Source: a virus. Taken from it: a stretch of DNA of 23,141 bases. The stretch is taken from positions 1 through 23,141 of IMG/VR virus record IMGVR_UViG_3300042540_000870. One strand, given 5' to 3'. The notes below the pieces were generated by a model that had not been told where the DNA came from, made no database searches, and saw only the letters and a list, made by a program, of their open reading frames with translations. Below, piece after piece: positions 1,058-22,885 of this stretch (the first letter of the stretch is position 1; each line of letters starts with the position of its first letter). Position numbers and translations under genes: made by a program.

Positions 1058-1525
1058 TTATTTAGAGTTCTCACTCCGAGCAATTTTTGAAATTTTGTCA
1101 AATACTTCATATTCTGCTTGTGACGGATTGGGATTTGATACTTTGATTTGTTGCAATTTTAATATGTCGTAAACTTCAATTTGGCTTTTGCGACCTTTTT
1201 CGCTTACTTCTTTAGGCGAAGCGGGAGTATAATTTGAAAATCCAGGCATCTCTAATGGGCAAGTAAGTCTAGGATAGTCTAGCTTAGAGTACACATTGCC
1301 GTTTAATGTTAATTGAGTAAATGGCGTATCACCACACCCACAGGCTCCACAATAATGACTATCAAAATTTTTACTTTTTAATAAGTGTGGACATGGAGCT
1401 ATCTCTTCGTTGCCAAAACAAGAAAGTCCTCTTAATTGTTTTCCTTGTGTGCTAACTTTATTGTTGGCGAATCCACGGGAAGCCAAAGACATAGCCAATG
1501 ATAAACATTTTTCTATAAAATTCAT
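1058..1525 (-). CDS. Cysteine-rich putative metal-binding protein
   Basis: This is a 155-residue protein of unknown function inside the baseplate/neck operon. I chose the ATG at 1525 because it forms an ATGA overlap with the stop of the upstream gene, the usual coupling in this operon; an in-frame ATG 33 bases upstream is less likely. Seven cysteines are visible at residues 7, 36, 45, 59, 62, 64 and 89. They are arranged as SCFG, APCPHL, YCGACGCGD and LTCPLEMPGFSNY. The CxxCxC cluster with flanking cysteines looks like a zinc or iron-sulfur site. The C-terminus is charged and possibly helical. I do not recognise a named family; a similar Cys-rich protein may be common among aquatic T4-like phages. 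Its location suggests a virion-assembly role, but that is inference. Confidence 0.65.
   Translation of the reverse strand: MNFIEKCLSLAMSLASRGFANNKVSTQGKQLRGLSCFGNEEIAPCPHLLKSKNFDSHYCGACGCGDTPFTQLTLNGNVYSKLDYPRLTCPLEMPGFSNYTPASPKEVSEKGRKSQIEVYDILKLQQIKVSNPNPSQAEYEVFDKISKIARSENSK
1059..1065 (-). promoter_or_regulatory. CTAAATA late-promoter-like motif before gp13
   Basis: CTAAATA reads on the minus strand at 1065-1059 and overlaps the stop codon of the upstream Cys-rich gene. It is followed by ATTTTTGAA and then the gp13 ATG. The motif resembles the T4 late promoter TATAAATA and recurs before other structural genes here. If transcription starts about 6 bases downstream, the leader would be only a few bases long. 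Confidence 0.5.
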
Positions 1526-2133: not shown

Positions 2134-3222
2134 TTATGCTCCGTAAGTCAAAGAGATACCAGCCATTTTTCTGGTAGCCAAGTATGATGTAATGAGCTGA
2201 TTTTGAACCGTAGGATTATTTAATGTTGATACATAAATTTTAATCTGTCCAGCAGCTGGGCTTGAAACTTGAATATCAGTTTTTGTTACAGATATGCCGT
2301 TTTCCAACAAGAAAGTATAGGTAGCATCAACATAATCAGTTTCAGTGACTAGGCGATCATTGGTTGATGTTACGTATGGGACGTATGTTTTAAGATAATC
2401 TTTAGACACACTATTACGACCACCTGATGGCGTAGTATGGCTTACAATTGTCACCCCATTATAATCTCTGGCTCCTGTAATTTGAGCAGAGTTTGCCATT
2501 GTTCCAGAGGATTCTATTGCTTCTATGGTCACTGCGGGATCTGGAACTTCAGCACCAGCTATGTTTGTTGTTACGTAATAAACATTAGGACCATTAAGAA
2601 CCGTAAATATTTTTGATCCAGAAGAATTAGAAAAACGATCCACTCTGGTCCAGTAATCGTCTGTCAGGGCTGAGGTTTTGGTTGAAAAGCGAACTGCAGT
2701 AGGATCGTAAGCCAAAGGTAATTCTAAAACCAAAGACTGGCTGTCAAAATTATTAAAGGCAGCTATATTTTTTCCAGCCACCATTTCAACAGTAATAGTA
2801 TTTGAACCAGTTACTGGCACTTCTTCTAAATTATAAAACAAACAAGGTGATCCATTTGTCTGTACTGCAGTAAATGCGCTAAAAATTGGTATTGCAGCTG
2901 CTCCTGCATTTTGTATAGACACCAAGCTTCTTGCAGACACTGAGTCTCCAACAAACCCTCCACGGAGATTTAAATCCAACAGCAATGCTCTTTTGGTAGT
3001 AGCTGTAACCGGAAAAGAATTTGTTAACACAGAATGAAGGTAGTATCCATTATATGCAGTGTTAGCTGAAAGAATGTCAATAAAAAGATTAATAGCAGAT
3101 GCAGAATTATCAAAGTCGTATGATTGAAATTGTGGATATTTCTGTAAGAAAGTCACTAAATTATTTCTTATAGATGTATAATCTAGTTTACCAACATTCA
3201 ATGTAGTATAATCGTAGCTCAT
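2134..3222 (-). CDS. 6: gp6-like baseplate wedge protein (short, baseplate J family)
   Basis: This 362-residue protein is related to T4 gp6, the wedge protein whose dimers form the inner baseplate ring. The N-terminal 60-100 residues show the typical gp6/gpJ start: LDYTSIRNNLVTFLQKYPQF, then YDFDNSASAINLFIDILSAN, then TAYNGYYLHSVLTNSFPVTA. It then has a beta-rich middle and a C-terminus of the type seen in baseplate J proteins (DYVDATYTFLLENGISVTKT, and a closing LITSYLATRKMAGISLTYG). T4 gp6 is about 660 aa, so this version is roughly half length. Its ATG overlaps the gp25 stop as ATGA. gp25, gp6 and a gpI-like gene in that order are the conserved wedge cassette of contractile tails. Confidence 0.75.
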   Translation of the reverse strand: MSYDYTTLNVGKLDYTSIRNNLVTFLQKYPQFQSYDFDNSASAINLFIDILSANTAYNGYYLHSVLTNSFPVTATTKRALLLDLNLRGGFVGDSVSARSLVSIQNAGAAAIPIFSAFTAVQTNGSPCLFYNLEEVPVTGSNTITVEMVAGKNIAAFNNFDSQSLVLELPLAYDPTAVRFSTKTSALTDDYWTRVDRFSNSSGSKIFTVLNGPNVYYVTTNIAGAEVPDPAVTIEAIESSGTMANSAQITGARDYNGVTIVSHTTPSGGRNSVSKDYLKTYVPYVTSTNDRLVTETDYVDATYTFLLENGISVTKTDIQVSSPAAGQIKIYVSTLNNPTVQNQLITSYLATRKMAGISLTYGA

Positions 3223-3599
3223 GGTTTGTACTTTATAAGAGTTACTGTGTTGTTTGGAATATTAAAAGATTTAGTTTTATAATCAAAGGTCACAGTAATT
3301 GTAATTTCTGCCCCAGAATATTGAATTGAAGATTTGATGTTATAAATTCCACTTATTAAATAAGACAAAGAACTATAAATTCTGTTATTATACAAAGTTC
3401 TTGTAAAATTATTAGCTATAGATTGCGTATCAAAATCTACACCTACAACAGGAGCGAATGGTCGTTCGATCTTATTTGATAATACTATATTTTGAATTTG
3501 TTGTGCAATCGAAGCCATACCAGCAACCAATGCGATATCTTTTTCCTCACTGGATGTGGCTACAGGTAATAATAAAATAGAAAAATCTACTTTGTCCAT
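3219..3599 (-). CDS. 25: gp25-like baseplate wedge protein
   Basis: This 126-residue protein belongs to the gp25/GpW family, which forms the wedge core with gp6 and nucleates the tail sheath. The family signature is visible at residues 31-56: IAQQIQNIVLSNKIERPFAP followed by VVGVDF. This corresponds to 'I..SI..LL.T..GER...P.FG'. Length matches T4 gp25 (about 132 aa). It is the first gene after a CTAAATA motif, only seven bases from its ATG, with a weak AGGA just upstream. It overlaps gp6 by ATGA. Confidence 0.8.
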   Translation of the reverse strand: MDKVDFSILLLPVATSSEEKDIALVAGMASIAQQIQNIVLSNKIERPFAPVVGVDFDTQSIANNFTRTLYNNRIYSSLSYLISGIYNIKSSIQYSGAEITITVTFDYKTKSFNIPNNTVTLIKYKP

Positions 3600-3606
3600 T
3601 TCCTAT

Positions 3607-3613
3607 TATTTAG
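3607..3613 (-). promoter_or_regulatory. CTAAATA late-promoter-like motif before gp25
   Basis: CTAAATA on the minus strand overlaps the stop codon (TAA) of the upstream hub-like gene. It is followed by ATAGGAA and the gp25 ATG. Seven bases from motif to start codon would leave almost no leader if the transcript starts where T4 late RNAs do. Confidence 0.5.
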
Positions 3614-6791: not shown

Positions 6792-7697
6792 TTAAATCAA
6801 CTTATTTAAAATACGACCGAACGCTGCCTGTTGTATATAGACAACTTGTGACTGTTCTTGGTATTCTGCTTGCTGGTACTGTTTGACAGGAATAGTGTTA
6901 TAAGTTTGATTATAATCTAAGCTGGCCGAGGCGTTTGGAGCATCTTCTTCAAGAACTGTAAAGGGTGTATCGTTGAATGCGGCAATCTGTGCATAATATG
7001 AAGTTTTAGATTTAGTAGTTTTTTCTATGGCCTCAACCGGGGATTCCGTAAATTTGTAAGTTTTTAAATTAACTGTCAAAGCTGTCGTTGTAGTATATGG
7101 GTTGATTACTAATCCATACTGTCCATTAGTTTTTCTTAATACATAAAAATTGTAACCCAACGAAACTATATCCGGATTTGCTAGATCTTGAGCTCCAGTA
7201 TCGCCTCCTGGTTTTAGGTTGGGAGTAATTTTTGCTTTTTTTGTATCTGAATAAGCTTTTTGAACGTGCCAGATGTCTGGATCTGTTGGAAAAATAGATT
7301 CTGCTGCGGTAACACCCGGAGAATAAGTATTCAACCAAGGAATAATAATATCCCCTTCTTTTAAATTTAAAAAAGTCTCTGGATTATTTTTAGTTCCAGA
7401 AAAACGCAAAACGGCTGATGAATAGATGCTGTTTCGGTCTTGGTAGGCACTTGGCTCTTCCGGTATCACTTCCCACGGATTAATTTGTTCATTGGCAAAC
7501 ATCAAAGCCCAAAAGTCTTCAGCATTTTGATATAATTCTAAACTTAATCCACCAATTTCATCAGCTTTATATGATGTTGCTGGAGTTGCAGAATAATCTG
7601 ATGGATCTGCATCATATGCATATGAAATATCTACTAAAGTTTTATTTTTTCCTTCAATAGTTGATGTATAATTTGGAAATTTTTGAAAATAACTCAT
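6792..7697 (-). CDS. 53: gp53-like baseplate wedge protein
   Basis: This 301-residue protein has the gp53 signature near its N-terminus. Around residues 50-85 it reads GLSLELYQNAEDFWALMFAN followed by EQINPWEVIPEEPSAYQ. It matches the gp53 pattern 'Y.....YWv.l..N...dP......' that precedes a long beta-rich tail. A segment around residues 108-122, LNLKEGDIIIPWLN, recalls the LysM-like end seen in many gp53 homologues. T4 gp53 is about 196 aa, so this one is longer. gp53 joins neighbouring wedges in the baseplate. Its ATG overlaps the preceding stop (ATGA), and the hub gene follows after one base. Confidence 0.6.
   Translation of the reverse strand: MSYFQKFPNYTSTIEGKNKTLVDISYAYDADPSDYSATPATSYKADEIGGLSLELYQNAEDFWALMFANEQINPWEVIPEEPSAYQDRNSIYSSAVLRFSGTKNNPETFLNLKEGDIIIPWLNTYSPGVTAAESIFPTDPDIWHVQKAYSDTKKAKITPNLKPGGDTGAQDLANPDIVSLGYNFYVLRKTNGQYGLVINPYTTTTALTVNLKTYKFTESPVEAIEKTTKSKTSYYAQIAAFNDTPFTVLEEDAPNASASLDYNQTYNTIPVKQYQQAEYQEQSQVVYIQQAAFGRILNKLI
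6803..6809 (-). promoter_or_regulatory. TTAAATA possible late promoter before the hub gene
   Basis: TTAAATA reads on the minus strand inside the 3' end of the gp53-like gene, with twelve bases to the hub-protein ATG. It is a one-base variant of the CTAAATA motif and has the same spacing range. In AT-rich DNA a seven-base AT match is weak evidence. Confidence 0.25.
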
Positions 7698-8494
7698 CCT
7701 ACTGCGGCTCCTAATGCAGATACTTCTGACTTGGACAACAATACTCCATCTTGGAAGGCTGGAGCAAAGGTTCCGGTTTCAAATTCTGTAAATGTTACGG
7801 TAAGCAAAGTAATAACAGCTCTTGCGTTTTTGAATACCTTCAATACTGGATCTGCGGGGTCTCCTTTATCAACTTGTAGACTTGAAAGGACACACGGCAG
7901 TGGATCACCTAACCAGCTATTAGTAAGATACGCTGCACCTACGTCACCATTAGAAAATGCGTCAATAATCCAAAGATTTTGAGGAAATGTTCTTTCGGGT
8001 AACTCGGGGACAACTTTTGGATAAGAATAGTTTTTAAAGCTATTGACAATTTGGTCAACTGCCTCAGACTCTGCGGGGTTCTTTGGCACAAACAAATATT
8101 TAAATGAAAAGTTACGGCGTGCTTCGCTCGTCATAGTTGCTTCAGTTATATTGCTAAAACGACGGTATGTATCCGTCGTAAAGGCTGCTTCATAAAAAGC
8201 AGCAGCCGGGGCCGAGAGCCTTTCTAGAAACAAATCATCACCACCGCTGGTATTTTTTAATCCCGCCATACTCGCTACGGGACCGACAGGATTGGCTCCG
8301 CTAGCAAATTCATGCTCCAAGCGCATCTTAGGCTCACTGGTGAAGGGTAGCCATATTTCTAGCAAAGGATTATCACGAATATACTGCCTGGTTCTGTTTT
8401 TATTGATTACAGAATACTCAGCGCACTTAAATATACACCAAAAAGGTATTTCGTTTGAATAAGGTTGTTGTGGGTATACTAAGGGATCTGGCAT
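7694..8494 (-). CDS. gp48/gp54-like baseplate tail-tube cap protein
   Basis: This 266-residue protein is the first gene of the minus-strand baseplate operon. At residues 128-158 it reads NFSFKYLFVPKNPAESEAVD then QIVNSFKNYSYP. This is the 'f.F..v.kn..Ea..v..Ii..fk....P' helix-containing segment typical of tube-fold baseplate proteins gp48 and gp54, and also gp19. These proteins cap the hub and start tail-tube polymerisation. T4 gp48 is about 364 aa. I cannot decide between gp48 and gp54 from the sequence alone. Its start lies 19 bases after a CTAAATA motif, with a poor AAAGAA Shine-Dalgarno sequence. Confidence 0.5.
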   Translation of the reverse strand: MPDPLVYPQQPYSNEIPFWCIFKCAEYSVINKNRTRQYIRDNPLLEIWLPFTSEPKMRLEHEFASGANPVGPVASMAGLKNTSGGDDLFLERLSAPAAAFYEAAFTTDTYRRFSNITEATMTSEARRNFSFKYLFVPKNPAESEAVDQIVNSFKNYSYPKVVPELPERTFPQNLWIIDAFSNGDVGAAYLTNSWLGDPLPCVLSSLQVDKGDPADPVLKVFKNARAVITLLTVTFTEFETGTFAPAFQDGVLLSKSEVSALGAAVG

Positions 8495-8513
8495 TTATTG
8501 TTCTTTCAAAAAT

Positions 8514-8520
8514 TATTTAG
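8514..8520 (-). promoter_or_regulatory. CTAAATA late-promoter-like motif, minus strand, baseplate operon
   Basis: CTAAATA at 8520-8514 reads into the minus-strand operon starting with the gp48/54-like gene. It is followed by ATTTTTGAAAG, the same downstream bases as the gp13 motif. It lies only twelve bases from a divergent copy at 8533-8539. Confidence 0.6.
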
Positions 8521-8532
8521 CATGCTCTTTAC

Positions 8533-8539
8533 CTAAATA
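8533..8539 (+). promoter_or_regulatory. CTAAATA late-promoter-like motif, plus strand, before gp4
   Basis: CTAAATA followed by TTTTTTGAAA and the gp4 ATG ten bases later. Together with 8514-8520 it forms a back-to-back divergent pair covering 26 bases. This is consistent with promoters that need no -35 element. Confidence 0.6.
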
Positions 8540-8549
8540 TTTTTTGAAA

Positions 8550-8969
8550 ATGGCATATAAAACTAGATTCACTCCAAAGAATAGACACAAATATGTCGGT
8601 ACAAAGACCGAATTGCTATGTCGTTCACTTTGGGAGCGACGTGTTTGTAAATTTTTAGATGAAAGTATAAGTGTTACAAAATGGTCTTTTGAGGAAATTG
8701 AAATCCCATATGTACACCCAATTGACAAAAAAGTTCACCGATATATTCCAGATTTCTTGGTTCAGACTGAACGTAATAATAAAAAAAAGAGTATTTTAGT
8801 TGAAGTTAAACCCAAAAAACAAGTAAAGTTAAAAGAATCCGCATCAAAGCGAGATCAAATTGTTTTTCAGATTAACAAAGCTAAATGGACTGCGGCTCAA
8901 AAATTCTGTGAAAAACATGATATTGAATTCAAAATTTTAACAGAAGAGGAAATATTTCATGGCAGTTAA
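8550..8969 (+). CDS. 4: gp4-like head completion nuclease
   Basis: This 139-residue protein is a homologue of T4 gp4, the head completion protein with a TnsA-like endonuclease fold. It begins with the typical MAYKTRFTPKNRHKY block. It then shows ELLCRSLWERRVCKFLD and FEEIEIPYVHPIDKKVHRY, all hallmarks of the family. A PD-(D/E)xK catalytic set is visible: Asp68 in IPDF, and Glu85 and Lys87 in LVEVKPKK. Glu29 in the SLWER helix is a possible additional ligand. Length equals T4 gp4 (about 150 aa). I start at the ATG at 8550, where the conserved MAYK begins; a TTG six bases upstream is in frame but less likely. It overlaps the next gene by 11 bases. Confidence 0.85.
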   Translation: MAYKTRFTPKNRHKYVGTKTELLCRSLWERRVCKFLDESISVTKWSFEEIEIPYVHPIDKKVHRYIPDFLVQTERNNKKKSILVEVKPKKQVKLKESASKRDQIVFQINKAKWTAAQKFCEKHDIEFKILTEEEIFHGS

Positions 8970-11063: not shown

Positions 11064-11924
11064 TCAATCCTGCTTATTCTTAAGCGTCTTGAAGTAATCC
11101 AGCGTATCCATGTCTTCGGCAGGGACCTGACTCACTGTAGAGTCATCCTCTACAGTGCGCTCAGAGGCTTCGTCAAACTGCTCGCGAATGTCTTCGCCAA
11201 CGGTCTTCTTGAACCGCTCCTTTAGCTCGTCATAAGACTTAAAGTTAGACGGATGCAGAAACTCCTGCAACTTGTACTGCTTCTTCCACAGCGCTTCAAG
11301 CTTCTTGTCGTCACCGCCCATAAGAGGAGCGGGGGCAGCAAACTCGCTACGGTCGTAGTTGACGTAACCACCAACATTGCGAATCTTCAGCTTAAAGTCA
11401 GCACCCTCCCAGAAATTAAAGGGATCGGTCGGGGTCTCGTCCTTGAACTCAGGGCTCATCAGAGACTGAACTTTTTCAAAGATCTTGGTGCCGTACTTAA
11501 AGAGAAACACTCGGCCCTCATTCTCTGAGTTGGAGGGATCACTGACAACAAGAATGTTGCTAATGTAGTTTAGCTTGCGCTTACGCTCACGGGCAATATT
11601 CTTGTCCTCTTCCATGCCACTGTTCCAAAGTTCAGTGTTGGCTTCACAGACAGGGCACTTCTCTCCAAGGCTAGTGCGGCAGTTCTCAATGAGCCAACCA
11701 CCCTTGCCTCGGAAGGCATGCGTGTACATCTTGATAAAGGGAACCTCTTCGCCCTCGGTGGGGGGAAGAAAACGAATGACGGCGTAGCCGTTCTTAGATG
11801 CATCAATACCGGGCTTCCAGAACCGATCATCCTTGTAGCTTTCCTTGCTATTAAGACTCTCCAGCTTCTTGCTGAGATCCTCAACCGAATTCTTGCTACG
11901 CTTCTTAAAATCTGCAAAACTCAT
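11064..11924 (-). CDS. 32: gp32 single-stranded DNA-binding protein
   Basis: This 286-residue protein is a clear homologue of T4 gp32, which coats single-stranded DNA during replication, recombination and repair. The N-terminal basic/helical segment (FADFKKRSKNSVEDLSKKLE) corresponds to the cooperativity domain. The OB-fold core carries WKPGIDASKNGYAVIRFLPP. A zinc site is visible as His69, Cys82, Cys90 and Cys93 (YTHAF ... ENCRT ... KCPVCE), matching the T4 His-Cys-Cys-Cys arrangement. KRKLNYISNILVVSDPSNSE, then NEGRVFLFKYGTKIF, also match. The acidic tail (VEDDSTVSQVPAEDMDTLDY) is the protein-interaction end. Length is close to T4 gp32 (301 aa). GC content is visibly higher than the surrounding genes. 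It has its own sigma70-type promoter, a structured leader and a terminator. AAAGG lies seven bases before the ATG. Confidence 0.95.
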   Translation of the reverse strand: MSFADFKKRSKNSVEDLSKKLESLNSKESYKDDRFWKPGIDASKNGYAVIRFLPPTEGEEVPFIKMYTHAFRGKGGWLIENCRTSLGEKCPVCEANTELWNSGMEEDKNIARERKRKLNYISNILVVSDPSNSENEGRVFLFKYGTKIFEKVQSLMSPEFKDETPTDPFNFWEGADFKLKIRNVGGYVNYDRSEFAAPAPLMGGDDKKLEALWKKQYKLQEFLHPSNFKSYDELKERFKKTVGEDIREQFDEASERTVEDDSTVSQVPAEDMDTLDYFKTLKNKQD

Positions 11925-11940
11925 GTGTAACCTTTCTTTC

Positions 11941-11987
11941 TCCGGGATCTACCCGGACCTAAAAATTATCAGAGGACATTCCCTGAT
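11941..11987 (-). promoter_or_regulatory. Structured gp32 mRNA leader (two hairpins)
   Basis: On the minus strand, the predicted start at 11987 begins directly with a hairpin: ATCAGGG, a 6-base loop AATGTC, then CTCTGAT (7 pairs, one G-U; 11987-11968). After an AT-rich single-stranded stretch (AATTTTTAGG) comes a perfect 6-bp stem TCCGGG/CCCGGA with loop TAGAT (11957-11941). The ribosome binding site and ATG follow. T4 gp32 is known to repress its own translation through a structured leader next to an unstructured AU-rich region. This leader could serve the same purpose, which is inference. Confidence 0.55.
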
Positions 11988-11993
11988 ATGCTT

Positions 11994-12021
11994 ATTCTAC
12001 CATATTTATGGTGGGTGTCAA
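11994..12021 (-). promoter_or_regulatory. sigma70-type promoter of gp32
   Basis: TTGACA (12021-12016), a 16-base spacer and TAGAAT (11999-11994) read toward gp32; the predicted start is about 11987. The -35 box overlaps the TGA stop codon of gp33. The spacer also contains ATAAATA (12009-12003), which could act as a late promoter for the same gene. Confidence 0.7.
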
Positions 12022-12260
12022 TCATCAATAGGGAGCTTTTTCTTTTTTGGAACTTTTAAAAGATGCTTTTCTTTTGCTTCCTCTTGAATTTTTTCAATAA
12101 TAGGCTTTGTTAAAAGTTTTCCAGCAGCGGCTGGCTCAATATTCATTTCTTCAGCTAATTCAATTATACAATCCATATAAGACAATTTTGTTGTTTGGAC
12201 TCGTTTCATGACATTGGCTGAAAAGGCTAATTTTGCTTTTTCATCTAGATACATAACCAT
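12018..12260 (-). CDS. 33: gp33-like late transcription co-activator
   Basis: This is an 80-residue protein resembling gp33 of T4-like phages, which binds host RNA polymerase and links it to the sliding clamp for late transcription. The pattern FSANVMKRVQTTKLSYMDCI, then IELAEEMNIEPAAAGKLLTK, PIIEKIQEEAKEKHLL and a final KKLPIDD matches the cyanophage-type gp33 layout: '.. v..k..sYmdaii...e...ie.e...kll...i.ekl..Ea...nll......LP'. Cyanophage-type gp33 is about 80-90 aa; T4 gp33 is 112 aa. It lies next to gp32, as genes 32 and 33 are close in T4. Two in-frame ATGs are possible, at 12260 and 12254. The promoter placement favours a leaderless start at 12254 (MYLDEK). If 12260 were used, no ribosome binding site is visible. 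Confidence 0.7.
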   Translation of the reverse strand: MVMYLDEKAKLAFSANVMKRVQTTKLSYMDCIIELAEEMNIEPAAAGKLLTKPIIEKIQEEAKEKHLLKVPKKKKLPIDD

Positions 12261-12301: not shown

Positions 12302-12308
12302 CTAAATA
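12302..12308 (+). promoter_or_regulatory. CTAAATA late-promoter-like motif before the 306-residue protein
   Basis: CTAAATA followed by TCTCAGACTCGGAGTATAA and the ATG at 12328. GGAG at 12319-12322 is a good Shine-Dalgarno sequence five bases from the start. It is back-to-back with the gp33 promoter. Confidence 0.6.
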
Positions 12309-12327: not shown

Positions 12328-13248
12328 ATGGCAAACAACCTTATTATTAATATTGCTGGAGGAAATACCGCTAACATCGCTACAAATGATGTAGCTGGAG
12401 CTCAGTATCAAGTTTTCAAAATGGCATATGGCAACACTGGAAGCGCGACCTTGGTCACTTCCAGCACACCATTTCCTGTAACTTTGTCATCAGGTGTCAC
12501 TGCCAATATTGTTAATTTTACTAATCCAGTCATTGTGGTCGGTAATAGCGCCGGAGACGCGGTCTTCGTTCAAGGCACCGTAAATATCCAAGGTGTCAGC
12601 GGAGCTCCCCTAGCGGTCACTGGGGGCATTCCTCGCAGTTATACAACAGACAGCATTGCTGTATATGGCTACAATGGAAATTCTTTTATTCAAGCAACTT
12701 TAGTTGGATCCGGTGGAGCTGCGATTGGAATGTCTGGTAGCGCCATCCGAGTATCCGTCCAAGATATTACAGTTACTGCCAGCATCAATCCTGTAATTTA
12801 CATTCAAAATTATGGATCTACCTCTGCCATTCGGGTTGAAGGAAATTCTGGTGGATATCCTGTAAACGTCGGAGTGTGTGGTACAGTCAATATTTACGAT
12901 ACCAATATTACCAATGGCTTAACTGCGATCTATGGTGAAATCGTAGATCTTAATAATAATCTAAGCACCATTGGAATTTCTAGACCCACAACCTTCATCT
13001 CTGGCAGAATGACCGCCACTACTGGCGTCACTTTCATGTATGGCGCTGGCTATACTACTGGAAACGGAGTTCAAGTAAAGGCATCTTCAGCCAACACAGA
13101 CATCGTCTACATCAACTCAGATGGAATAGCGACAGTGGGATATGAACTAGACCCCGGCGAAAATATATTCATCGACGTTATCAACATCAATACAATTTAC
13201 GTTAGAGCAAAATCTTCTTCCCAGATAATTTCATACTTGGCTAGCTAA
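12328..13248 (+). CDS. Beta-rich virion protein (fibre/decoration-like)
   Basis: This 306-residue protein is dominated by short Gly, Ser, Thr, Val and Ile-rich strands, for example GNTANIATNDVAG, VIVVGNSAGDAVFVQGTVNI and VEGNSGGYPVNVGVCGTVNI. The recurring 'V.G...G.PV.V.GTVNI' unit, seen near residues 75-95 and 175-195, suggests a beta-helix or repeated beta-sandwich, common in phage fibres and capsid decorations. The C-terminal 60 residues (GNGVQVKASSANTDIVYINS, GYELDPGENIFIDV, INTIYVRAKSSSQIISYLA) look like a small jelly-roll seen at the end of phage surface proteins. It is led by a late motif and a good ribosome binding site, so I infer a virion surface protein. No named family can be assigned. 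Confidence 0.6.
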   Translation: MANNLIINIAGGNTANIATNDVAGAQYQVFKMAYGNTGSATLVTSSTPFPVTLSSGVTANIVNFTNPVIVVGNSAGDAVFVQGTVNIQGVSGAPLAVTGGIPRSYTTDSIAVYGYNGNSFIQATLVGSGGAAIGMSGSAIRVSVQDITVTASINPVIYIQNYGSTSAIRVEGNSGGYPVNVGVCGTVNIYDTNITNGLTAIYGEIVDLNNNLSTIGISRPTTFISGRMTATTGVTFMYGAGYTTGNGVQVKASSANTDIVYINSDGIATVGYELDPGENIFIDVININTIYVRAKSSSQIISYLAS

Positions 13249-15164: not shown

Positions 15165-15806
15165 TCAAATATAGTTAACAGTCTTTTTCATTTTAGAGCC
15201 ACACCCACAGCCATTGCTTGCAGGTCTAGGTGAAGCCGTCTGATTTGTTTGTGAATAATTATTATTAGAATGTCCAAGCTCATCTTGTTCTTTGTTGTGT
15301 GCTTGTTCGATAATGTTTCTTTTTACATTATCATAAAGATTTTCAAGACGCTCTTCTTCTAATTTTTGTTCTTGTAGACGTTGTTTGCGGTAGAAGCGAG
15401 TGCGAATGACCACTGCATCCTCGTAATCATGATCGTCAAACCAAATTTTAAAAATCGGAATGCTAAACCATTTATTAAATTTTTGTCTTCTTGCTTCACA
15501 ACCGCAGTTTCCGTTTGTTAATTTGATAATTAAAGATTTTAATCCAGTTTTTCTTGTAAAGAAATCAATCATATCACCTATACGCAGGGAATATGTTTTA
15601 ATTTCTATCTTTAATGTTCGATTCCATTCTAATTTTATTGCAAAAGGTCGGTAATAAAATAAATGTTTTTTACTTTCTTTTGCTGCCGTTACTAATTCTG
15701 GATTAGTAAAATCTAAATTAAAATTTAGTTCATTGGGTACGGAGAAGGTAGTATACCCATTAGAAGTCAAAGAATGATTCCCAACAAATGTATTATTATT
15801 AAACAC
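15165..15806 (-). CDS. CGC-motif phage protein, function unknown
   Basis: This 213-residue protein starts at a GTG, with an AAAGGTG Shine-Dalgarno sequence seven bases upstream. A block around residues 76-118 reads GDMIDFFTRKTGLKSLIIKL, then TNGNCGCEARRQKFNKWFSI. The 'GD.I....k.tG.k.....l....CGC..R...LN..f' pattern is one I recognise from many uncharacterised phage proteins. A charged coiled-coil-like stretch follows (RKQRLQEQKLEEERLENLYD). The end is Asn/Gln/Ser-rich and closes with a second Cys cluster, NGCGCGSKMKK. The paired CxC motifs suggest metal binding or disulfides. It is preceded by a CTAAATA motif, so late expression is likely. No function can be given. Confidence 0.6.
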   Translation of the reverse strand: MFNNNTFVGNHSLTSNGYTTFSVPNELNFNLDFTNPELVTAAKESKKHLFYYRPFAIKLEWNRTLKIEIKTYSLRIGDMIDFFTRKTGLKSLIIKLTNGNCGCEARRQKFNKWFSIPIFKIWFDDHDYEDAVVIRTRFYRKQRLQEQKLEEERLENLYDNVKRNIIEQAHNKEQDELGHSNNNYSQTNQTASPRPASNGCGCGSKMKKTVNYI

Positions 15807-15825: not shown

Positions 15826-15832
15826 TATTTAG
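15826..15832 (-). promoter_or_regulatory. CTAAATA late-promoter-like motif
   Basis: CTAAATA on the minus strand lies between the stop of the giant Cys-rich gene (15839) and the GTG at 15806. It is followed by ACATG, a strong AAAGGTG ribosome binding site and the start. Confidence 0.55.
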
Positions 15833-15838
15833 ATGACT

Positions 15839-18800
15839 TTAGTTATCGTAATATAAATCGCAACGAACATCTGATGTTTCTCCAATGATTTGAATTGGTA
15901 TAGTATCACTCGGGTCATCGAAGCACCTTGCTCTAAAATCTCCAACTTGTGTTCCCGCATCATCGCTAAAACCTTGGAATGCAATTGGAGCTCCAGTAAA
16001 TCCATAAGTTAAACCGGGACATTCCAGATTATATGTTGATGGAATTTCTTCGTAAACTCTATACCAAAGATATGGTGGAATTTCTGAAATATTATCTTCT
16101 GGTGGACCCGGCAAAGGTTCGTTTCCTGGATAGTAAAGTCCCGGGGAATCTATTCCTGTATTTCCAGCCAATTCGTAGAACATTCCAGATGGCAAAGCGC
16201 AACACCATCTACAATTTTCACATACACGTTCTCCGTTTGGGCACCCAAAAGATGAATTGGGGCAATTACCAACGCCAGTTGGATTTGCTGGACTGGTTGG
16301 TCCACACCAACACTCAGATGCACTCAACCCCGGAGGAATTCGCCCAGAATAATCTTTAAACGATGCCATTCCTTTTAGCCAATCATCGGTAGCAACAATA
16401 GACAAATACATATCTTTTTCATAATAATTTGCCGTTGCAGTTTCATTAAACGTGCCATTTGTTATGACTGGATCACCATAATTACAATTTTGTTTCTGTC
16501 CATATGCATGGACCCAGCCGCCGGGACCTATTAAATCATACGGACTGCGTGTCATACACCCACTTTGTGTTGCACACGGATCGTCACAAGGCTCTCCAGC
16601 ACATAGATTTGTTGAAGGGCAACTCAAATTTCTTTGTTTTGATTGGTTATAGTCGTCCTCTAGCGGTTTTAAATTGGGCCCACCGACATAAACTTTTGGA
16701 TATTTTAAAACATTTTCAACCGTATATGCATTTATCAAAGCATCCTTCGGGACCATTATTTCATTAAACAGTCTACTAGATGTCAATCCATAAACTTCAC
16801 CCTCTGTTGGTCTATCGTATCCAACGAAGGCTGGACGGTATGGTAGCGGTGCATCTTTTACTCCATAGTTTTGAGTAGTGGTGTTATAAGCATAGTAATA
16901 TTCTCTTCTAGCGTATAAAAATCCTGTAATATTAGTTTTAACAACACCACAGCATTCTCCTACATTTAATTGAAAATTTCCTCTACCGTTTAATTTACCA
17001 AAAGCCTTGGCTGATTGTATAAAGTAATCTTTATTTGAATTAAACCCGATTCTCCCGGTTATATAACCAAAACATCTTGTTCCAATGTATTGGGCATCTG
17101 CATCGCAACTTAATCTATATTGTTGTCTTGTATATGGAGGACATCCACATACATCATCTAAACATTGACATGACACGACATTATTTGTAAAATTTTCATA
17201 TTGATACGCATAGGGCGAAGGACTTCCATCGCCAATCCAACATATATCTCCGTTTGCATAACATCCACCAAAACTTCTATTTAATGCTACATTAGTATCT
17301 TGCAATGTCCCCGCTTGTGTTCCTATACCAAAATCTTCAGGCTTTAATCCGTCTTCATTGTCTATATTTCTTATTAACCCACAACCACCTCCCTTAGCAG
17401 GATCATATGAGTGTAGTGGGGTAGCTTGTTGATTTCTTTTCCACGAACCTCTCATCCAATAATACTGAGGTATTCCTGTATAAGAGCGATTTATATCACC
17501 TTTTCTGTAGTACACACTACAGGTGTCAGGCTTTGCTACTTGATTATCAATAAAATCCGTGCCCAACAAATGGCAAGGTCTTCCAAATAACCATTTTGTA
17601 ATTTCCCAACGACCTGGAACAGCTCTAAAAAATGCCTGTGATCTAAAATACTGCGGCAATGAATTGTAATCTTTAAACTGCCAAACTGCATGACCCGGTG
17701 AAAAGGAATCTCCATTCCACGTTTGTGCAACTAATCCAGCTGTGTATATTCCAGCTGCATTTCCATAAGTGGAAGTTATGTCCGTGTAATATTTTCCTTC
17801 CAGCCCTCCAGTTAAACCAAAATCATACAGACTATTTGTTTTACGTCCTTTTCTAACAAATATTTCTGTGCTGTTGGTGTATGCATTTTCTTTTTTATAT
17901 AATACTGTAACTGCATTTGGTCCAGCAACGATTTTTTTAATATTGCTGTAATTTTTTCCATAAGATCCTGTCAAGCCATTTATTGGAATGCCGGAAACAG
18001 ATTCGACCATTTCAGCATGACCCCAAATAACTAAACGATCAGTAGTTCCATCTTTTCTTGCCAAAATACTATAATCTGGGCCACCTTCTATAGCAAATAT
18101 TTTTTTACTTTGATACACTGTTTTGTTGGCTTCAGTGTAAACGAGGTAGGGAGTGTGGTCTGCATTTGTATCTGAAACAGAAGTATCTTTGCATCCATAA
18201 GTAAGACCTCCCAATGACCATTGATCTGCGTAAATTTCACCTGTTGGCAAGAAAACGTCTATAGCGTTAATTCCACTGTTGCCGCTAACATCCGTTTGTG
18301 TTGGACCCAAAACAGTTCCATCGGGTTTTACTTTAACATACTGACCCCATATTTTAATATTGTTATCATCAGACAACGCAATAGTATGGTAGTGTCCTGT
18401 GGCTACATCTGTAAACACTGGCGTATCAACGCGAATCGACCCAGCATTGCCTCCATCAAATACATAACCCTTTGTATCATTTTCATCGTTGATAAGAGAA
18501 TCTATTCCAATTTGGTAAAGATAACACCTAATGTCGCAGGGAGATGACTGATTTGATATTCTGTTACACTTAAATTCATTTATGTAAGTGACGCCTGGTA
18601 TATTGTTTATTCTTTGAGCGTCGTAAAGCCGTTCCCATTCTTCGTTTGTAAAATAACCGGGTTTTGGAAAGTTTTTATAAAAAGTTAAACTATTTGTTGC
18701 AACATTTAATTTTTCTGATGATGCTGATGTTGGTTGTTTTACTGCAGATGCCGTGGGGTATCCATATGAAGTTTGTTTATTTGAACCGTCAAGATTACTT

Positions 18801-21800
18801 GAATCCGGTGTCATGAAAAGAGCGCCATCAAATGTGATGGCTGCACTGTGGTTTACTCCCGAAGCAACATCTTTGTAAATAAAATAATTATTTTGTATTC
18901 TACCAACAGCTCCGGGAAGACCCAAAAATGGAATCCAACTTGGAACAAAATAATCAGAAATAAAATTATTTGATTGATAAAAAATACAATGGGGATTACT
19001 TCCCCATGCACGAATAGTATAAGCGCTCACAAATCCACTTTGGTTATTAAATTTTCCATAAAATGGTTGATAATTTGAATCACCGTTTTGTCGGAAGTAT
19101 CCAGAATTTGAAAACAAACTCCGCTGTTGGGCTGAGCCAAAAGCATCTCCCTCGGTAGGGCCCAAAACTCTTCCCTGATTGTAATCTACTAAGGCTACAG
19201 CACTAGAACCTTTAGAAGAAACTTTAAGTACTGTTCCATCACTCAAATTAGTAGAACTTGACACAGCTTGAAGTTCATCTGCGTAACTTAAGTGTGCAGG
19301 ATAGCAACCAAGTTTTGCTACACTGTTAATTACACTCTGTGCATCTGTTCCACAGAATCCGTTTGATTCGTGACCAAAAGCTTGAAGCTTACCAGAATTA
19401 GTTGTAGCAAACCAAGTTCTATCTCCACCATCCAAATTAAAAAACTCTAAAGGGTAATCATCTGGTGGAATGAGGTTCGGTGAGTATCCATAATCATTAC
19501 ATCCACCTTCTTCGCAGCCCCACGCTGTCAACCCTGATGTATCTGGTGTCGGATACAGTTTAACTCTCCGTGGAGCCCAGAACATCTGTCCAGGAGCTCT
19601 TTGATGTGACTGAGGTCTGATAAGTTGTTTTATATTTTTTGAACTAAAATATGGTTTAATGTTTTCCCATGTTTTTTCTGGCCCACACGCACCAGTCAAA
19701 GTATACAAAAAATCTATAAGATTTAAATATCCACTTTTTCCTCCAACCATGATATCATCCATGGAATCTCTGAATGTAACATCTATATCACCTGATGGAA
19801 GTTCTTCAACGGCAGTATTATCTAATATTTCAGAAAGTTCATCTGCAACGTCTGGGGCATGGTCTTTTACGCTTAAAATATTATATTTGATCATTTGTTT
19901 CAACCAAGTTGAAACAAAATTGTAATCATCAACATCCGATTTAAATATCAGTGGCTCGTTGTATCTGGTTTCTCCATTGCGAACTGTAATATTATAAAAA
20001 TATTTGTAAAACTGTTCTAAAAACTGTTCACCATCAAAATACTTACCATCAATTTTAATATCATATTTTTGCGACAAAACTTCCATCGCATATATGTCAG
20101 CATAAAAAATTGGAACTGTAGAAGATCCATATATTACACTTCGTGGGAAAGATTTCATGGTTTGAAAACGTAAAGCTTCCCGAGGATCGTATGTAAACTT
20201 AGTTGGAGCTACTATTCCACCGTAAGGACGTTCATATGGAAGAATAAGTAAACGAGCATGATTGAAGGTCGGTATAGGTGCTGGGCAAAAAAGAACTTTA
20301 CTGTGATAAGCCCAACATTCAAAGTGGTGATCAATGCCGACCAATCCTACTAATTTATGATATAACAGGTCTTTTTTATTGTAAGCTGTTTTAAACTTTA
20401 CAGAAGACCATTCCATGTTGCCAGCTTGATTTTTACCAGTTTGAATTATGGTGCTTTTGTATGTTGGTCCTAAAGTTTCATACTCGGAAGGAATTGCACT
20501 TCCATAATTAATAATATCATGTGCTGCTGTTGCAGTTCTATTTGAAATTCTGTTTAGATAAGGAGAAACTCCTCTACTAAAACAAGAAAACTGGTAATTG
20601 GGATTAAAAAAAGGAAAATCTGGATTAGGTGATGATGAAATAGTTGTATTACAATATGGACCAATAGTTTGTGGTGTTTTTCCAAATCCACTTGCTTTGG
20701 GCCAAGCTGCAGCATTTAATCTTTTTACTTCAAAGCTTGGGTCACAATCGCTACCACCAGAAACAGCAGAGTAGGAACGATAACATGTCATACAATTTGC
20801 TTCAGTTGTAGTCATTCTTGGCAAGAATGGATCTGAAGAAGGAAAGTAGCCTCCCATGTTTTCTCTTTGAGAAACATTAAATTGTTTTTTAACAGTATCT
20901 ACTAACCCACCGCTCAAATGTGGGTACGCAAAACACTGGCATGGAAAGTTTCCACGTTCTCTACAAATACAATTTAGACCCCGAGAACAAAGATCATTGT
21001 AATAGCTTTTTATGCAACTTGCATCTAGATCTGGACCATTGTTTCCTCCGTTGCTAGACTGATCCCGGACATCCCCGATCACCAGATCACATGCTCTATA
21101 TGCTTCATTGCCCTCTAAACCTGTTCGTTTCCATCCCTGTCCTTGCGTGACACTTGGATTATAATTAAAAATATATTCTGGGGGATACCAAACTAAAGAA
21201 CACTGTGAATATCTGTATACCAAGTATAATGGCAATGCTCCGGGAGCTCCTCCATTAAACAAACACATTTCACATTGTACATCCGGAGCTCCTCCACCGC
21301 CACCACCCGGCCCACCACCTCCACCACCACCACCGCCACCACCGCCACCATTCGGCCCGGGACCTACGTCCAGTGTAGTCAAAAGACCAATACTTGTATT
21401 TTGGTAACTATATTCATTTACATGGTCGCCAACAGACGATCTATAATTTGTTTTAATTGATGGATTTAATCCTTGTTTTAAATCTTCAATTTCATTTGCA
21501 CTTATAGTAGATCCAGTTAATCCTTTAAACAAAATATTAAGAGTTTCAGCCTGCGGTGGGTTAATATACCCTTTCCAAAAATTTACATTTTGAAATGTAG
21601 ATCCAATCGCATTGCCTAAGTTATCAGAATAAAATGGAGTACTTAAAACTTCTGTAACATTTTTAAATTGTCCATCAGTGTTTCCAAAATTTGGATCACA
21701 AAATTCAATACATTCTTCTCGGCAGTTTTCACAAAAATTAACATTTTTTCCATTGCAGTCTAGACCAACAGGTCGAATGTTTCTTATACAGTCAATATCA

Positions 21801-22045
21801 TAACCATTGTTTTCCAAACACTGTCTACATACACGATTTAAACTTAATTGATCTTTAAATCTTTGATTTGATTTTATTGGACTTAAGGTTTCAATTTTAT
21901 TTGTAGTCGTATATGTATTTGGATTTTCAGCTACATATAATTCTTTATTTGGAAAAATAAATTGTGATCTACTACCCTTGAATGGAGTAATAAATGTTTT
22001 ATTAAATTGTTTAAAAATACGAGGAATGAAAGAATCAGAAGACAT
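15839..22045 (-). CDS. Giant cysteine-rich protein with RCC1-like repeats
   Basis: This 2068-residue protein is by far the largest gene here. I count roughly 65 cysteines, many in CxxC/CxC groups. Near residues 73-120 they occur in CRQC, FCENCREECIEFC; near 330-365 in GLNCICRERGNFPCQCF; and near the C-terminus in VSCQCLDDVCGCPP and VCENCRWCC. A poly-Gly tract (13 Gly, Pro, 6 Gly) at residues 233-252 separates an N-terminal domain from the rest. Between about residues 865 and 1390 several RCC1-like units recur, such as DVATGHYHTIALSDDNNIKI-WG, DVASGVNHSAAITFDGAL and FAIEGGPDYSILARKDG; these suggest a beta-propeller. No enzyme motif or membrane segment is visible. By size, composition and location it is probably a virion adhesin or fibre. 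The ATG has AGG nine bases upstream and a TTAAATA motif. Confidence 0.7.
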   Translation of the reverse strand: MSSDSFIPRIFKQFNKTFITPFKGSRSQFIFPNKELYVAENPNTYTTTNKIETLSPIKSNQRFKDQLSLNRVCRQCLENNGYDIDCIRNIRPVGLDCNGKNVNFCENCREECIEFCDPNFGNTDGQFKNVTEVLSTPFYSDNLGNAIGSTFQNVNFWKGYINPPQAETLNILFKGLTGSTISANEIEDLKQGLNPSIKTNYRSSVGDHVNEYSYQNTSIGLLTTLDVGPGPNGGGGGGGGGGGGGPGGGGGGAPDVQCEMCLFNGGAPGALPLYLVYRYSQCSLVWYPPEYIFNYNPSVTQGQGWKRTGLEGNEAYRACDLVIGDVRDQSSNGGNNGPDLDASCIKSYYNDLCSRGLNCICRERGNFPCQCFAYPHLSGGLVDTVKKQFNVSQRENMGGYFPSSDPFLPRMTTTEANCMTCYRSYSAVSGGSDCDPSFEVKRLNAAAWPKASGFGKTPQTIGPYCNTTISSSPNPDFPFFNPNYQFSCFSRGVSPYLNRISNRTATAAHDIINYGSAIPSEYETLGPTYKSTIIQTGKNQAGNMEWSSVKFKTAYNKKDLLYHKLVGLVGIDHHFECWAYHSKVLFCPAPIPTFNHARLLILPYERPYGGIVAPTKFTYDPREALRFQTMKSFPRSVIYGSSTVPIFYADIYAMEVLSQKYDIKIDGKYFDGEQFLEQFYKYFYNITVRNGETRYNEPLIFKSDVDDYNFVSTWLKQMIKYNILSVKDHAPDVADELSEILDNTAVEELPSGDIDVTFRDSMDDIMVGGKSGYLNLIDFLYTLTGACGPEKTWENIKPYFSSKNIKQLIRPQSHQRAPGQMFWAPRRVKLYPTPDTSGLTAWGCEEGGCNDYGYSPNLIPPDDYPLEFFNLDGGDRTWFATTNSGKLQAFGHESNGFCGTDAQSVINSVAKLGCYPAHLSYADELQAVSSSTNLSDGTVLKVSSKGSSAVALVDYNQGRVLGPTEGDAFGSAQQRSLFSNSGYFRQNGDSNYQPFYGKFNNQSGFVSAYTIRAWGSNPHCIFYQSNNFISDYFVPSWIPFLGLPGAVGRIQNNYFIYKDVASGVNHSAAITFDGALFMTPDSSNLDGSNKQTSYGYPTASAVKQPTSASSEKLNVATNSLTFYKNFPKPGYFTNEEWERLYDAQRINNIPGVTYINEFKCNRISNQSSPCDIRCYLYQIGIDSLINDENDTKGYVFDGGNAGSIRVDTPVFTDVATGHYHTIALSDDNNIKIWGQYVKVKPDGTVLGPTQTDVSGNSGINAIDVFLPTGEIYADQWSLGGLTYGCKDTSVSDTNADHTPYLVYTEANKTVYQSKKIFAIEGGPDYSILARKDGTTDRLVIWGHAEMVESVSGIPINGLTGSYGKNYSNIKKIVAGPNAVTVLYKKENAYTNSTEIFVRKGRKTNSLYDFGLTGGLEGKYYTDITSTYGNAAGIYTAGLVAQTWNGDSFSPGHAVWQFKDYNSLPQYFRSQAFFRAVPGRWEITKWLFGRPCHLLGTDFIDNQVAKPDTCSVYYRKGDINRSYTGIPQYYWMRGSWKRNQQATPLHSYDPAKGGGCGLIRNIDNEDGLKPEDFGIGTQAGTLQDTNVALNRSFGGCYANGDICWIGDGSPSPYAYQYENFTNNVVSCQCLDDVCGCPPYTRQQYRLSCDADAQYIGTRCFGYITGRIGFNSNKDYFIQSAKAFGKLNGRGNFQLNVGECCGVVKTNITGFLYARREYYYAYNTTTQNYGVKDAPLPYRPAFVGYDRPTEGEVYGLTSSRLFNEIMVPKDALINAYTVENVLKYPKVYVGGPNLKPLEDDYNQSKQRNLSCPSTNLCAGEPCDDPCATQSGCMTRSPYDLIGPGGWVHAYGQKQNCNYGDPVITNGTFNETATANYYEKDMYLSIVATDDWLKGMASFKDYSGRIPPGLSASECWCGPTSPANPTGVGNCPNSSFGCPNGERVCENCRWCCALPSGMFYELAGNTGIDSPGLYYPGNEPLPGPPEDNISEIPPYLWYRVYEEIPSTYNLECPGLTYGFTGAPIAFQGFSDDAGTQVGDFRARCFDDPSDTIPIQIIGETSDVRCDLYYDN
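19894..19918. repeat. Perfect 11-bp inverted repeat, 3-base loop
   Basis: TTTGTTTCAAC and GTTGAAACAAA flank CAA within the giant Cys-rich gene. The stem would form in RNA of either strand. It encodes FVSTWLKQM, so it may simply reflect coding sequence. Confidence 0.8.
21290..21349. repeat. (GGN)n tract encoding poly-Gly
   Basis: Sixty bases of mostly CCA/CCG/CCT triplets on the plus strand, reading on the minus strand as 13 Gly codons, one Pro and six Gly codons. It is a GC-rich simple repeat in AT-rich DNA and a likely site for copy-number slippage and polymorphism. Confidence 0.9.
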
Positions 22046-22057
22046 TATATGTACCTA

Positions 22058-22064
22058 TATTTAA
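22058..22064 (-). promoter_or_regulatory. TTAAATA possible late promoter before the giant gene
   Basis: TTAAATA overlaps the TAA stop of the 134-residue Cys-rich gene and lies twelve bases before the ATG at 22045. It is the same variant and distance as the one before the hub gene. Confidence 0.3.
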
Positions 22065-22465
22065 CTACATGTTCCGCAAATATTACAACAACTCTCTGGC
22101 GTTGAACCCAAGTCACCTATTCTGTTTACTGCAGCGAATAGTGCTCCTTCACCACAAGTATTACTGCCTGAATTGTTTGGACAGTCCACACAATCGCGAG
22201 TAAGTGGGCAGCATTCGCATGCACTGAAAGAGTTGGGTGTGCAGCAACAATTGCATGGAATTTCATTTGTATTGGGTTGAATTCTCCAACCACGTTCACG
22301 ACTTCGTGTTCTTGACGTTGGTCGATTAATTTTTAAAGAAATCAAATCTCCCTGTGATACAGGAACGGCACTGTTCATAAGATCTCCAAAAATTGTAACA
22401 AATTGGTCTGTAAGCCAAATTTCACAACATGCACCTTCTGGGCAACAACATTTTCTTGTAAGCAT
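22061..22465 (-). CDS. Very cysteine-rich small protein
   Basis: This 134-residue protein has 19 cysteines (about 14 percent). They are grouped as KCCCPEGACCEIW at residues 5-17, PCNCCCTPNSFSACECCPL and DCVDCPN in the middle, and SCCNICGTCS at the end. A Cys-poor beta-like segment lies between (DQFVTIFGDLMNSAVPVSQG, then DLISLKINRP). There is no secretion signal. The arrangement resembles zinc-cluster or disulfide-stabilised knots, but I recognise no family. It starts 13 bases after a CTAAATA motif and is directly upstream of the giant Cys-rich gene. The shared cysteine bias suggests the two proteins work together or share a fold principle, which is inference. Confidence 0.65.
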   Translation of the reverse strand: MLTRKCCCPEGACCEIWLTDQFVTIFGDLMNSAVPVSQGDLISLKINRPTSRTRSRERGWRIQPNTNEIPCNCCCTPNSFSACECCPLTRDCVDCPNNSGSNTCGEGALFAAVNRIGDLGSTPESCCNICGTCS

Positions 22466-22478
22466 ATTTGATCCGTGA

Positions 22479-22485
22479 TATTTAG
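22479..22485 (-). promoter_or_regulatory. CTAAATA late-promoter-like motif before the Cys-rich pair
   Basis: CTAAATA on the minus strand, followed by TCACGGATCAAAT and the ATG at 22465. It lies just downstream of the hairpin that closes the winged-helix gene, so it begins a new transcription unit. Confidence 0.6.
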
Positions 22486-22878: not shown

Positions 22879-22885
22879 ATAAATA
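22879..22885 (+). promoter_or_regulatory. ATAAATA possible late promoter before the metalloprotease-like gene
   Basis: GATAAATATC lies 14 bases before the ATG at 22900 and matches the late consensus TATAAATA in seven of eight bases. A weak sigma70 alternative, TAGACT-17-TATACT (22865-22893), overlaps it. Confidence 0.4.

Follow-up and report, generated by a model that had tools for sequence, protein, structure and literature searches.

Two copies of CTAAATA lie back to back on opposite strands, in the short stretch between a leftward and a rightward unit of structural genes, and the arrangement encourages us to ask what kind of element is repeated here and where the messages that it would control begin. 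The window, as the whole stretch of viral DNA analysed is called here, is 23,141 nucleotides long. We consider it very probable that positions 8514-8539 are a bidirectional pair of T4-type late promoters, of a kind whose elements stand near start codons across a phage group.

Table 1. Features of the window on which the argument draws; spacings run from the end of the motif to the start codon.
Feature	Position	Strand	Remarks
Leftward late promoter, -10 type CTAAATA	8514..8520	-	19 nt to ATG of 7694-8494
Spacer, 12 bp	8521..8532		Letters not conserved; 7-14 bp in relatives
Rightward late promoter, -10 type CTAAATA	8533..8539	+	10 nt to gp4 ATG
Tail-tube-cap (gp48/54-like) gene, first in leftward unit	7694..8494	-	phrog_230, E 3e-10
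gp4 head-closure gene, first in rightward unit	8550..8969	+	phrog_218, E 7e-45
Predicted leftward transcription start	8508	-	Sixth base past motif, T4 numbering; leader about 14 nt
Predicted rightward transcription start	8545..8546	+	Leader about 4-5 nt ahead of ATG 8550
Late promoter CTAAATA	1059..1065	-	9 nt to ATG of head-tail adaptor gene 249-1049
Late promoter CTAAATA	3607..3613	-	7 nt to ATG of gp25-like baseplate wedge gene 3219-3599
Late promoter CTAAATA	12302..12308	+	19 nt to ATG of 12328-13248; spacer with GGAG
Late promoter CTAAATA	15826..15832	-	19 nt to GTG of 15165-15806; spacer with AAGGTG
Late promoter CTAAATA	22479..22485	-	13 nt to ATG of Cys-rich ORF 22061-22465
Possible late promoter, ATAAATA	22879..22885	+	14 nt to ATG 22900; spacer with GGAGG
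gp32 gene beside gp33	11064..11924	-	phrog_224
gp33 homolog (late-promoter co-activator)	12018..12260	-	phrog_254, E 7e-16

The back-to-back pair and its conservation

The initial annotation described the locus as TATTTAG, 12 bases and CTAAATA, and direct reading assigns these to 8514-8520, 8521-8532 and 8533-8539. The similar T-rich DNA ending in TTGAAA that it placed outward of each motif is seen on both sides (ATTTTTGAAA after the left motif, TTTTTTGAAA after the right motif), and the structural neighbours that it named, gp48/54-like and gp4, are borne out by family matches (table 1). The alignment of the window gp4 with a homolog begins at residue 1 of its N-terminus. As a candidate part of the motif the TTGAAA tail was rejected: ATTTTTGAA or TTTTTTGAA follows three of the seven window sites, and the tail is absent at gp4 of two relatives (G008 and G010). 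The TTGAAA-type tail is read as an AT-rich melting region plus leader.

CTAAATA occurs seven times in the window against 5.9 expected from shuffles, and since it is not over-represented its count was dropped as evidence. The placement of the copies is what is informative. All seven lie in the sense strand 7-19 nt upstream of a start codon, at distances of 7, 9, 10, 13, 19, 19 and 19 nt, one of the three 19-nt spacings being less certain because it depends on a GTG start (15806). Strand-specific positions no more than 25 nt upstream of a gene start make up 1.46% of the window, and if the copies are independent the chance of such a placement in seven out of seven is about 1e-13; the 26 gene starts used were picked from the ORF list, and that of the cut right-end gene was placed 6 nt too early. 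The possibility that the motif is found equally often inside genes, raised at the outset as a test, is thus contradicted, two of the seven copies merely overlapping the final bases of the upstream ORF. A family match was obtained for four of the seven motif-bearing genes, and all four are virion genes (gp4, tail cap, gp25-like and head-tail adaptor); the other three had no family match in the scan. One of these three, the Cys-rich ORF of 134 aa at 22061-22465 (minus strand), is preceded by a late promoter and gave no PHROG match, and lies just upstream of an ORF of 2068 aa (15839-22045, minus strand) that contains Cys-rich and Gly-rich stretches.

Related gp4 loci were found in 32 cases, and 31 of them could be read upstream, L039 being dropped as its match starts at the edge. 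Both motifs, as CTAAATA or ATAAATA, are kept in 29 of the 31 loci, and neither motif stands upstream of gp4 in the remaining two (L036 and L038). Because many of the 29 loci are near copies, the fairer number is the 11 distinct cores counted by eye among the window and its relatives, the window included; the relatives are partly redundant, the window is a fragment and gene starts were taken mechanically. Within these cores the gap is 7, 10, 12 or 14 bp and the spacer letters are unrelated, and both 7-mers persist. The arms carry C on both sides in nine cores and A on both sides in two (by eye); concerted switching of the two arms between A and C was considered and is not pressed, since mixed pairs occur elsewhere.

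This variation bears on whether the two motifs could form one palindromic protein-binding site and not two promoters. TATTTAG-n-CTAAATA is indeed an inverted repeat, but gaps that at this one locus measure 7, 10, 12 or 14 bp, and 0-2 bp elsewhere, do not fit a dimer site of fixed dimensions, and single motifs stand before other genes, which makes the single-site reading extremely improbable. Two promoters facing away from each other are the preferred reading. In the window and 11 long relatives, 20 divergent pairs were counted within 25 bp against four convergent ones, and with HTVC008M added the counts become 21 and 4; T4, DSL-LC03, Aeh1, Syn9 and S-PM2 together have six divergent and eight convergent pairs.

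Identity of the elements

We conclude that the elements are T4-type late promoters, presumably recognized by gp55. The late promoter of T4 is TATAAATA at -13 to -6, and that of Aeh1 was given by Nolan et al. as CTAAATA from -12 (PMC1524935); late promoters of cyanophages are described as NATAAATA, with the core ATAAATA (PMC2984593). The window pair has an element of the -10 type, and exact CTAAATA, the published Aeh1 variant, is present on both strands. The initial annotation saw good evidence for a T4-type late system, and this stands, supported by motif match, position, conservation and the gp33 and gp55 homologs. Its argument that such packing is only possible without a -35 element fails, since sigma-70 promoters with back-to-back starts 7-25 bp apart are described as common (PMC10268837). 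Therefore, compactness alone is not evidence for a T4-type system.

The evidence from placement extends to the relatives. In each of 13 records, 50-100% of the CTAAATA copies are followed by an ATG ORF within 30 nt, against 5-10% per record for permuted motifs. When the first base is varied (window and 12 relatives), 95/142 copies with C and 97/255 with A have an ATG ORF no more than 30 nt downstream, compared with 10/181 for GTAAATA and 35/406 for TTAAATA. There are local exceptions: ATAAATA is not enriched before starts in the window (1/5), G002 (1/7) or G004 (1/8), and TTAAATA is somewhat raised before starts in the window (4/15) and G001 (6/18). No -35 signal was detected in 198 distinct sites from 13 records, where no position between -57 and -13 carries more than 0.11 bit of information; at -4 there is a preference for T.

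These results also weigh against a bidirectional promoter of the ordinary sigma-70 type of the host, in which elements are shared or overlap. Promoters of that type are common (PMC10268837), and the elements found here are TATAAT-like, but no sigma-70 pair was found at the motif positions, where two separate 7-mers stand 12 bp apart. In addition, the first-base specificity (C and A against G and T, the value for T in the window being 4/15), the lack of -35 information and a gap that varies from 7 to 14 bp at the gp4 locus are all at odds with it, and the sigma-70 reading is highly improbable.

The proteins expected of T4-type late transcription can be traced in part. A gp33 homolog is present in the window and in 16 of 17 relatives. 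gp55 was not seen in the 23-kb window; it was found in 4 of the 17 relatives, which are four of the five contigs of at least 60 kb, and the 13 relatives without a match are fragments, one of them of 64 kb. For gp45, PF02916 gave matches only below the cut-off, in three of eight records. The gp32 and gp33 genes of the window (11064-12260, minus strand) lie between two plus-strand units with late promoters, and no motif was found within 30 nt upstream of either gene.

In the mechanism proposed for T4-type late promoters of this kind, each promoter would consist of one -10 type element, (C/A)TAAATA, read by an RNA polymerase whose sigma is a gp55-like phage protein; gp33 would be bound, and the replication clamp would act as activator. 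This polymerase complex would open the DNA at either 7-mer, presumably late in infection, and the left promoter would serve the tail-cap/baseplate genes and the right one gp4 and the tail-tube gene. With one predicted start at 8508 and the other at 8545, a distance of 37 bp, polymerases on the two sides would have overlapping footprints, and the promoters should fire in alternation. The base at -12 differs among these phages. It looks A-specific in T4, where 30/65 copies with A and 3/31 with C have an ATG ORF in the next 40 nt, and C-specific in Aeh1 (C 28/43, A 5/23); Syn9, DSL-LC03 and most window relatives use both. This preference might offer a way to approach the specificity of gp55.

Spacing to the start codon and the beginning of the message

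The distance between motif and start codon was counted for each motif copy that is followed within 40 nt by an ATG, the first one opening at least 60 codons being taken. In the window and 11 relatives, 190 of 380 copies have such an ORF; the spacing is 5 in 41 copies and 6-10 in 61, which gives 102/190 at 5-10 with a spike at exactly 5. Spacing 5 occurs in 41/380 motif copies against 7/1689 control copies, and a spacing below 5 in only 1/380 (window clade); 175 of the 380 copies have no ATG ORF within 60 nt. In T4, Aeh1, Syn9, S-PM2 and DSL-LC03, 159 of 377 copies have an ATG ORF, 144 of these 159 at 15-40 nt, three at spacing 5 and two at 6-10. HTVC008M has 24 of 64 copies with an ATG ORF, 12 of them at spacing 5 and three at 6-10. 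Spacing 5 is intermediate or weak in Mosig (6/32), Melnitz (3/29) and P-SSM4 (2/32); G020 (3/40) and G022 (5/19) were both picked for holding a spacing-5 pair. In the window itself there is no case of exact spacing 5.

The same shift is visible in a single gene. Upstream of gp4 orthologs, 18-26 nt separate motif and start in Aeh1, P-SSM4, Syn9, S-PM2 and T4, and Mosig has about 40 nt; in the window, G005, G007 and G008 the distance is 9-11 nt, and in G010, G016, G011, G012 and HTVC008M it is 5 nt (rows for Melnitz, DSL-LC03 and G020, where the wrong Met was matched, are left out). Motif-bearing genes of the relatives include portal, tail tube, tape measure and wedge as well as non-virion genes. 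Twenty proteins behind short spacings were scanned (19 at 5-9, one at 7-8 without a match). Virion parts among them are portal, gp4, gp25-like wedges, tail cap, head-tail adaptor, tail tube, tape measure and gp2; a resolvase, regulators and a phosphoesterase are non-virion, and others have no match.

The register of the start is supported by evidence that makes no use of start codons. Among 93 sites with spacing 11-40, purines occupy the sixth base past the motif in 82%, more than at any other of the 11 positions compared, and the figure for 151 reference sites is 81%. T4 numbering makes this base +1, and at a spacing of 5 it consequently coincides with the A of the AUG. Many relatives have motifs that end at exactly this distance from the AUG, and there the mRNA would be leaderless. 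Among 518 copies from 14 records, the codon at spacing 5 that opens at least 100 aa is ATG in 56 cases and GTG or TTG in none. In the window, leaders of about 2-5 nt are predicted for gp4, the adaptor gene and the gp25-like gene, whose motifs lie 7-10 nt before the AUG, of 8 nt for 22061-22465 and of 14 nt for the other three genes; the rightward start is uncertain by about 1 nt because the predicted +1 is a T with a G directly after it. At four window genes the spacing remains 13-19 nt, and a Shine-Dalgarno-like core is present at two of these. The window is therefore predicted to be near-leaderless and not strictly leaderless, with leaders of about 2-14 nt, a closeness of start and codon on which the initial annotation does not remark.

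A Shine-Dalgarno core lies in the spacer of 59/73 starts at 15-40 nt and of 1/117 at 5-10 nt. The latter figure follows largely from the spacing, as there is no room at 5-6. Nor is absence of the core rare in these genomes, because only 139 of 354 long motif-less ORFs of the same records carry it before the first ATG (mechanical starts).

Could the motif be a translation signal, such as an upstream enhancer or a Kozak-like element, in mRNAs that start farther upstream? Its short and partly fixed distance from the AUG would suit such a signal. However, the motif also stands at 15-40 nt with a Shine-Dalgarno core in between (59/73), it equals the published late promoters of Aeh1 and, in the A form, of cyanophages, and the purine peak at the sixth base is independent of the start codon. 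The gp4 distances of 18-26 nt in T4, Syn9, S-PM2, P-SSM4 and Aeh1 against 5-11 nt in the window clade and HTVC008M point the same way, and we regard a translation signal as very unlikely.

A more serious alternative accepts late promoters and holds that the short-spaced genes use leadered mRNAs from upstream promoters, or start codons further in, with no leaderless translation. It is compatible with the late-promoter half of our explanation, and two of the seven window motifs do overlap the end of the gene before them. For 36 of the 117 genes at spacing 5-10 the five references contain a homolog; in 23 of the 36 the homolog's Met falls within one residue of the predicted start, and the other 13 alignments start further in or are uninformative. 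In HTVC008M only one of six spacing-5 genes with a homolog aligns from residue 1; the other five favour the alternative, and some starts of this phage could therefore lie further in, although the depositors' starts agree with seven of seven spacing-5 ATGs in the 6-20 kb part of the genome. Set against the alternative are the sharp spike at spacing 5 with nearly nothing below it, the AUG-only rule at that spacing, the 23 of 36 homologs that agree, and divergent genes only 25-26 bp apart, where a longer leader must start inside the opposite gene. We judge it unlikely. On the strength of motif and start-codon positions, many late messages of the phage group and of some ocean phages probably begin at, or a few letters from, the start codon.

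Distribution and comparison with known systems

The minimal form CAT-N5-TATTTAK-N-MTAAATA-N5-ATG was found in 50 viral contigs in a collection-wide scan, two of which were already in the comparison set; with spacers of 4 it occurs in six contigs, with spacers of 6 in eight and with a rotated motif in two. Ten long contigs out of the 50 were tested for gp55, and four have it. One of them, a jumbo-phage-sized contig of 369 kb, holds the minimal divergent promoter (L190) and a distant gp55. A test of T4-likeness by reference match gave 40/50 and also 12/16 for the controls, and it was set aside as it does not discriminate. In this most compact form, a control region of 25 bp is predicted from its sequence to be a complete bidirectional promoter for two leaderless mRNAs.

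In the gp32 tree the window clade comprises 13 records (support 88/99), and HTVC008M and Mosig group with Melnitz, Syn9 and P-SSM4 (99/97), apart from the window clade. It follows that short spacing either evolved repeatedly or disappeared in the cyanophages. It is likely that several T4-like lineages, namely the window clade, SAR11 pelagiphages and further uncultured phages, have made a large share of their late virion genes leaderless or near-leaderless through a gp55 promoter set exactly 5 nt, or slightly more, ahead of the AUG. If this is true, late expression in such cases would require no Shine-Dalgarno site, and translation initiation would shift to intact ribosomes. The architecture gives a testable start position for each gene, and it may explain why a survey of SAR11 myophages calls late-promoter prediction in pelagimyophages 'unsuccessful' (PMC7029224). 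Leaderless phage mRNA as such is already known, one paper describing the transcripts of phages as 'often leaderless' (PMC5312081). No report of leaderless T4-type late mRNAs appears among the open-access titles and abstracts listed, and transcript maps of T4-like cyanophages may exist in subscription journals; in PMC9004378, PMC7892664 and PMC11845039 the word 'leaderless' occurs only in a reference title. If confirmed, T4 late transcription, a classic model system, would include a branch whose promoters almost merge with the start codons, so that the starts of transcription and translation coincide, in phages of abundant bacteria.

The window and its relatives share with T4 (TATAAATA with gp55, gp33 and gp45) a promoter of the -10 type only and homologs of gp33 and, in 4 of the 17 relatives, of gp55, and T4 has a divergent pair of its own at gp26/gp51 with a gap of 7. 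The differences are that the -12 base is A in T4 and C or A here, and that T4 keeps its leaders (27/33 at 15-40 nt). Cyanophages S-PM2 and Syn9 (NATAAATA) resemble the window group in the core ATAAATA (PMC2984593), and in Syn9 and DSL-LC03 both the A and the C variants stand before ATG ORFs; however, cyanophage spacings are mostly 15-40 nt, with 5-10 in 1/28 (Syn9) and 1/33 (S-PM2). Aeh1 has the identical 7-mer CTAAATA and a back-to-back pair at the homologous gp4/gp48 junction, where TATTTAG abuts CTAAATA with zero gap. In Aeh1, however, 30 of 33 copies with an ATG ORF are at 15-40 nt, and gp4 is at 18 nt with AAGGAG, whereas the spacing is 7-19 nt in the window and often exactly 5 in its relatives.

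Outside the T4-like phages, bidirectional sigma-70 promoters are similar in that divergent starts arise from a very short stretch. Their -10 elements overlap reciprocally and their starts are mostly 18 bp apart (PMC10268837), whereas here two separate elements with gaps of 1-14 bp would give starts 26-39 bp apart. The other leaderless phage mRNAs mentioned in PMC5312081 are not tied to a T4-type late promoter, and the leaders of AR9 are 26-491 nt long.

HTVC008M, whose host is SAR11, has the spike at spacing 5 (12 of the 24 copies with an ATG ORF) and a divergent gp2/gp4 pair with a gap of 2, both of whose messages are predicted to be leaderless. The annotation places its gp2 and gp4 on opposite strands with 26 bp between them (L127:18392-19440), and the intergenic stretch consists of two late elements, a 2-bp gap, 5-nt spacers and nothing else. 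In the same phage, Curli-type CsgF/CsgG genes (L127:7562-8887) lie behind a predicted leaderless late promoter. HTVC008M differs from the window clade in belonging to a separate lineage in the gp32 tree.
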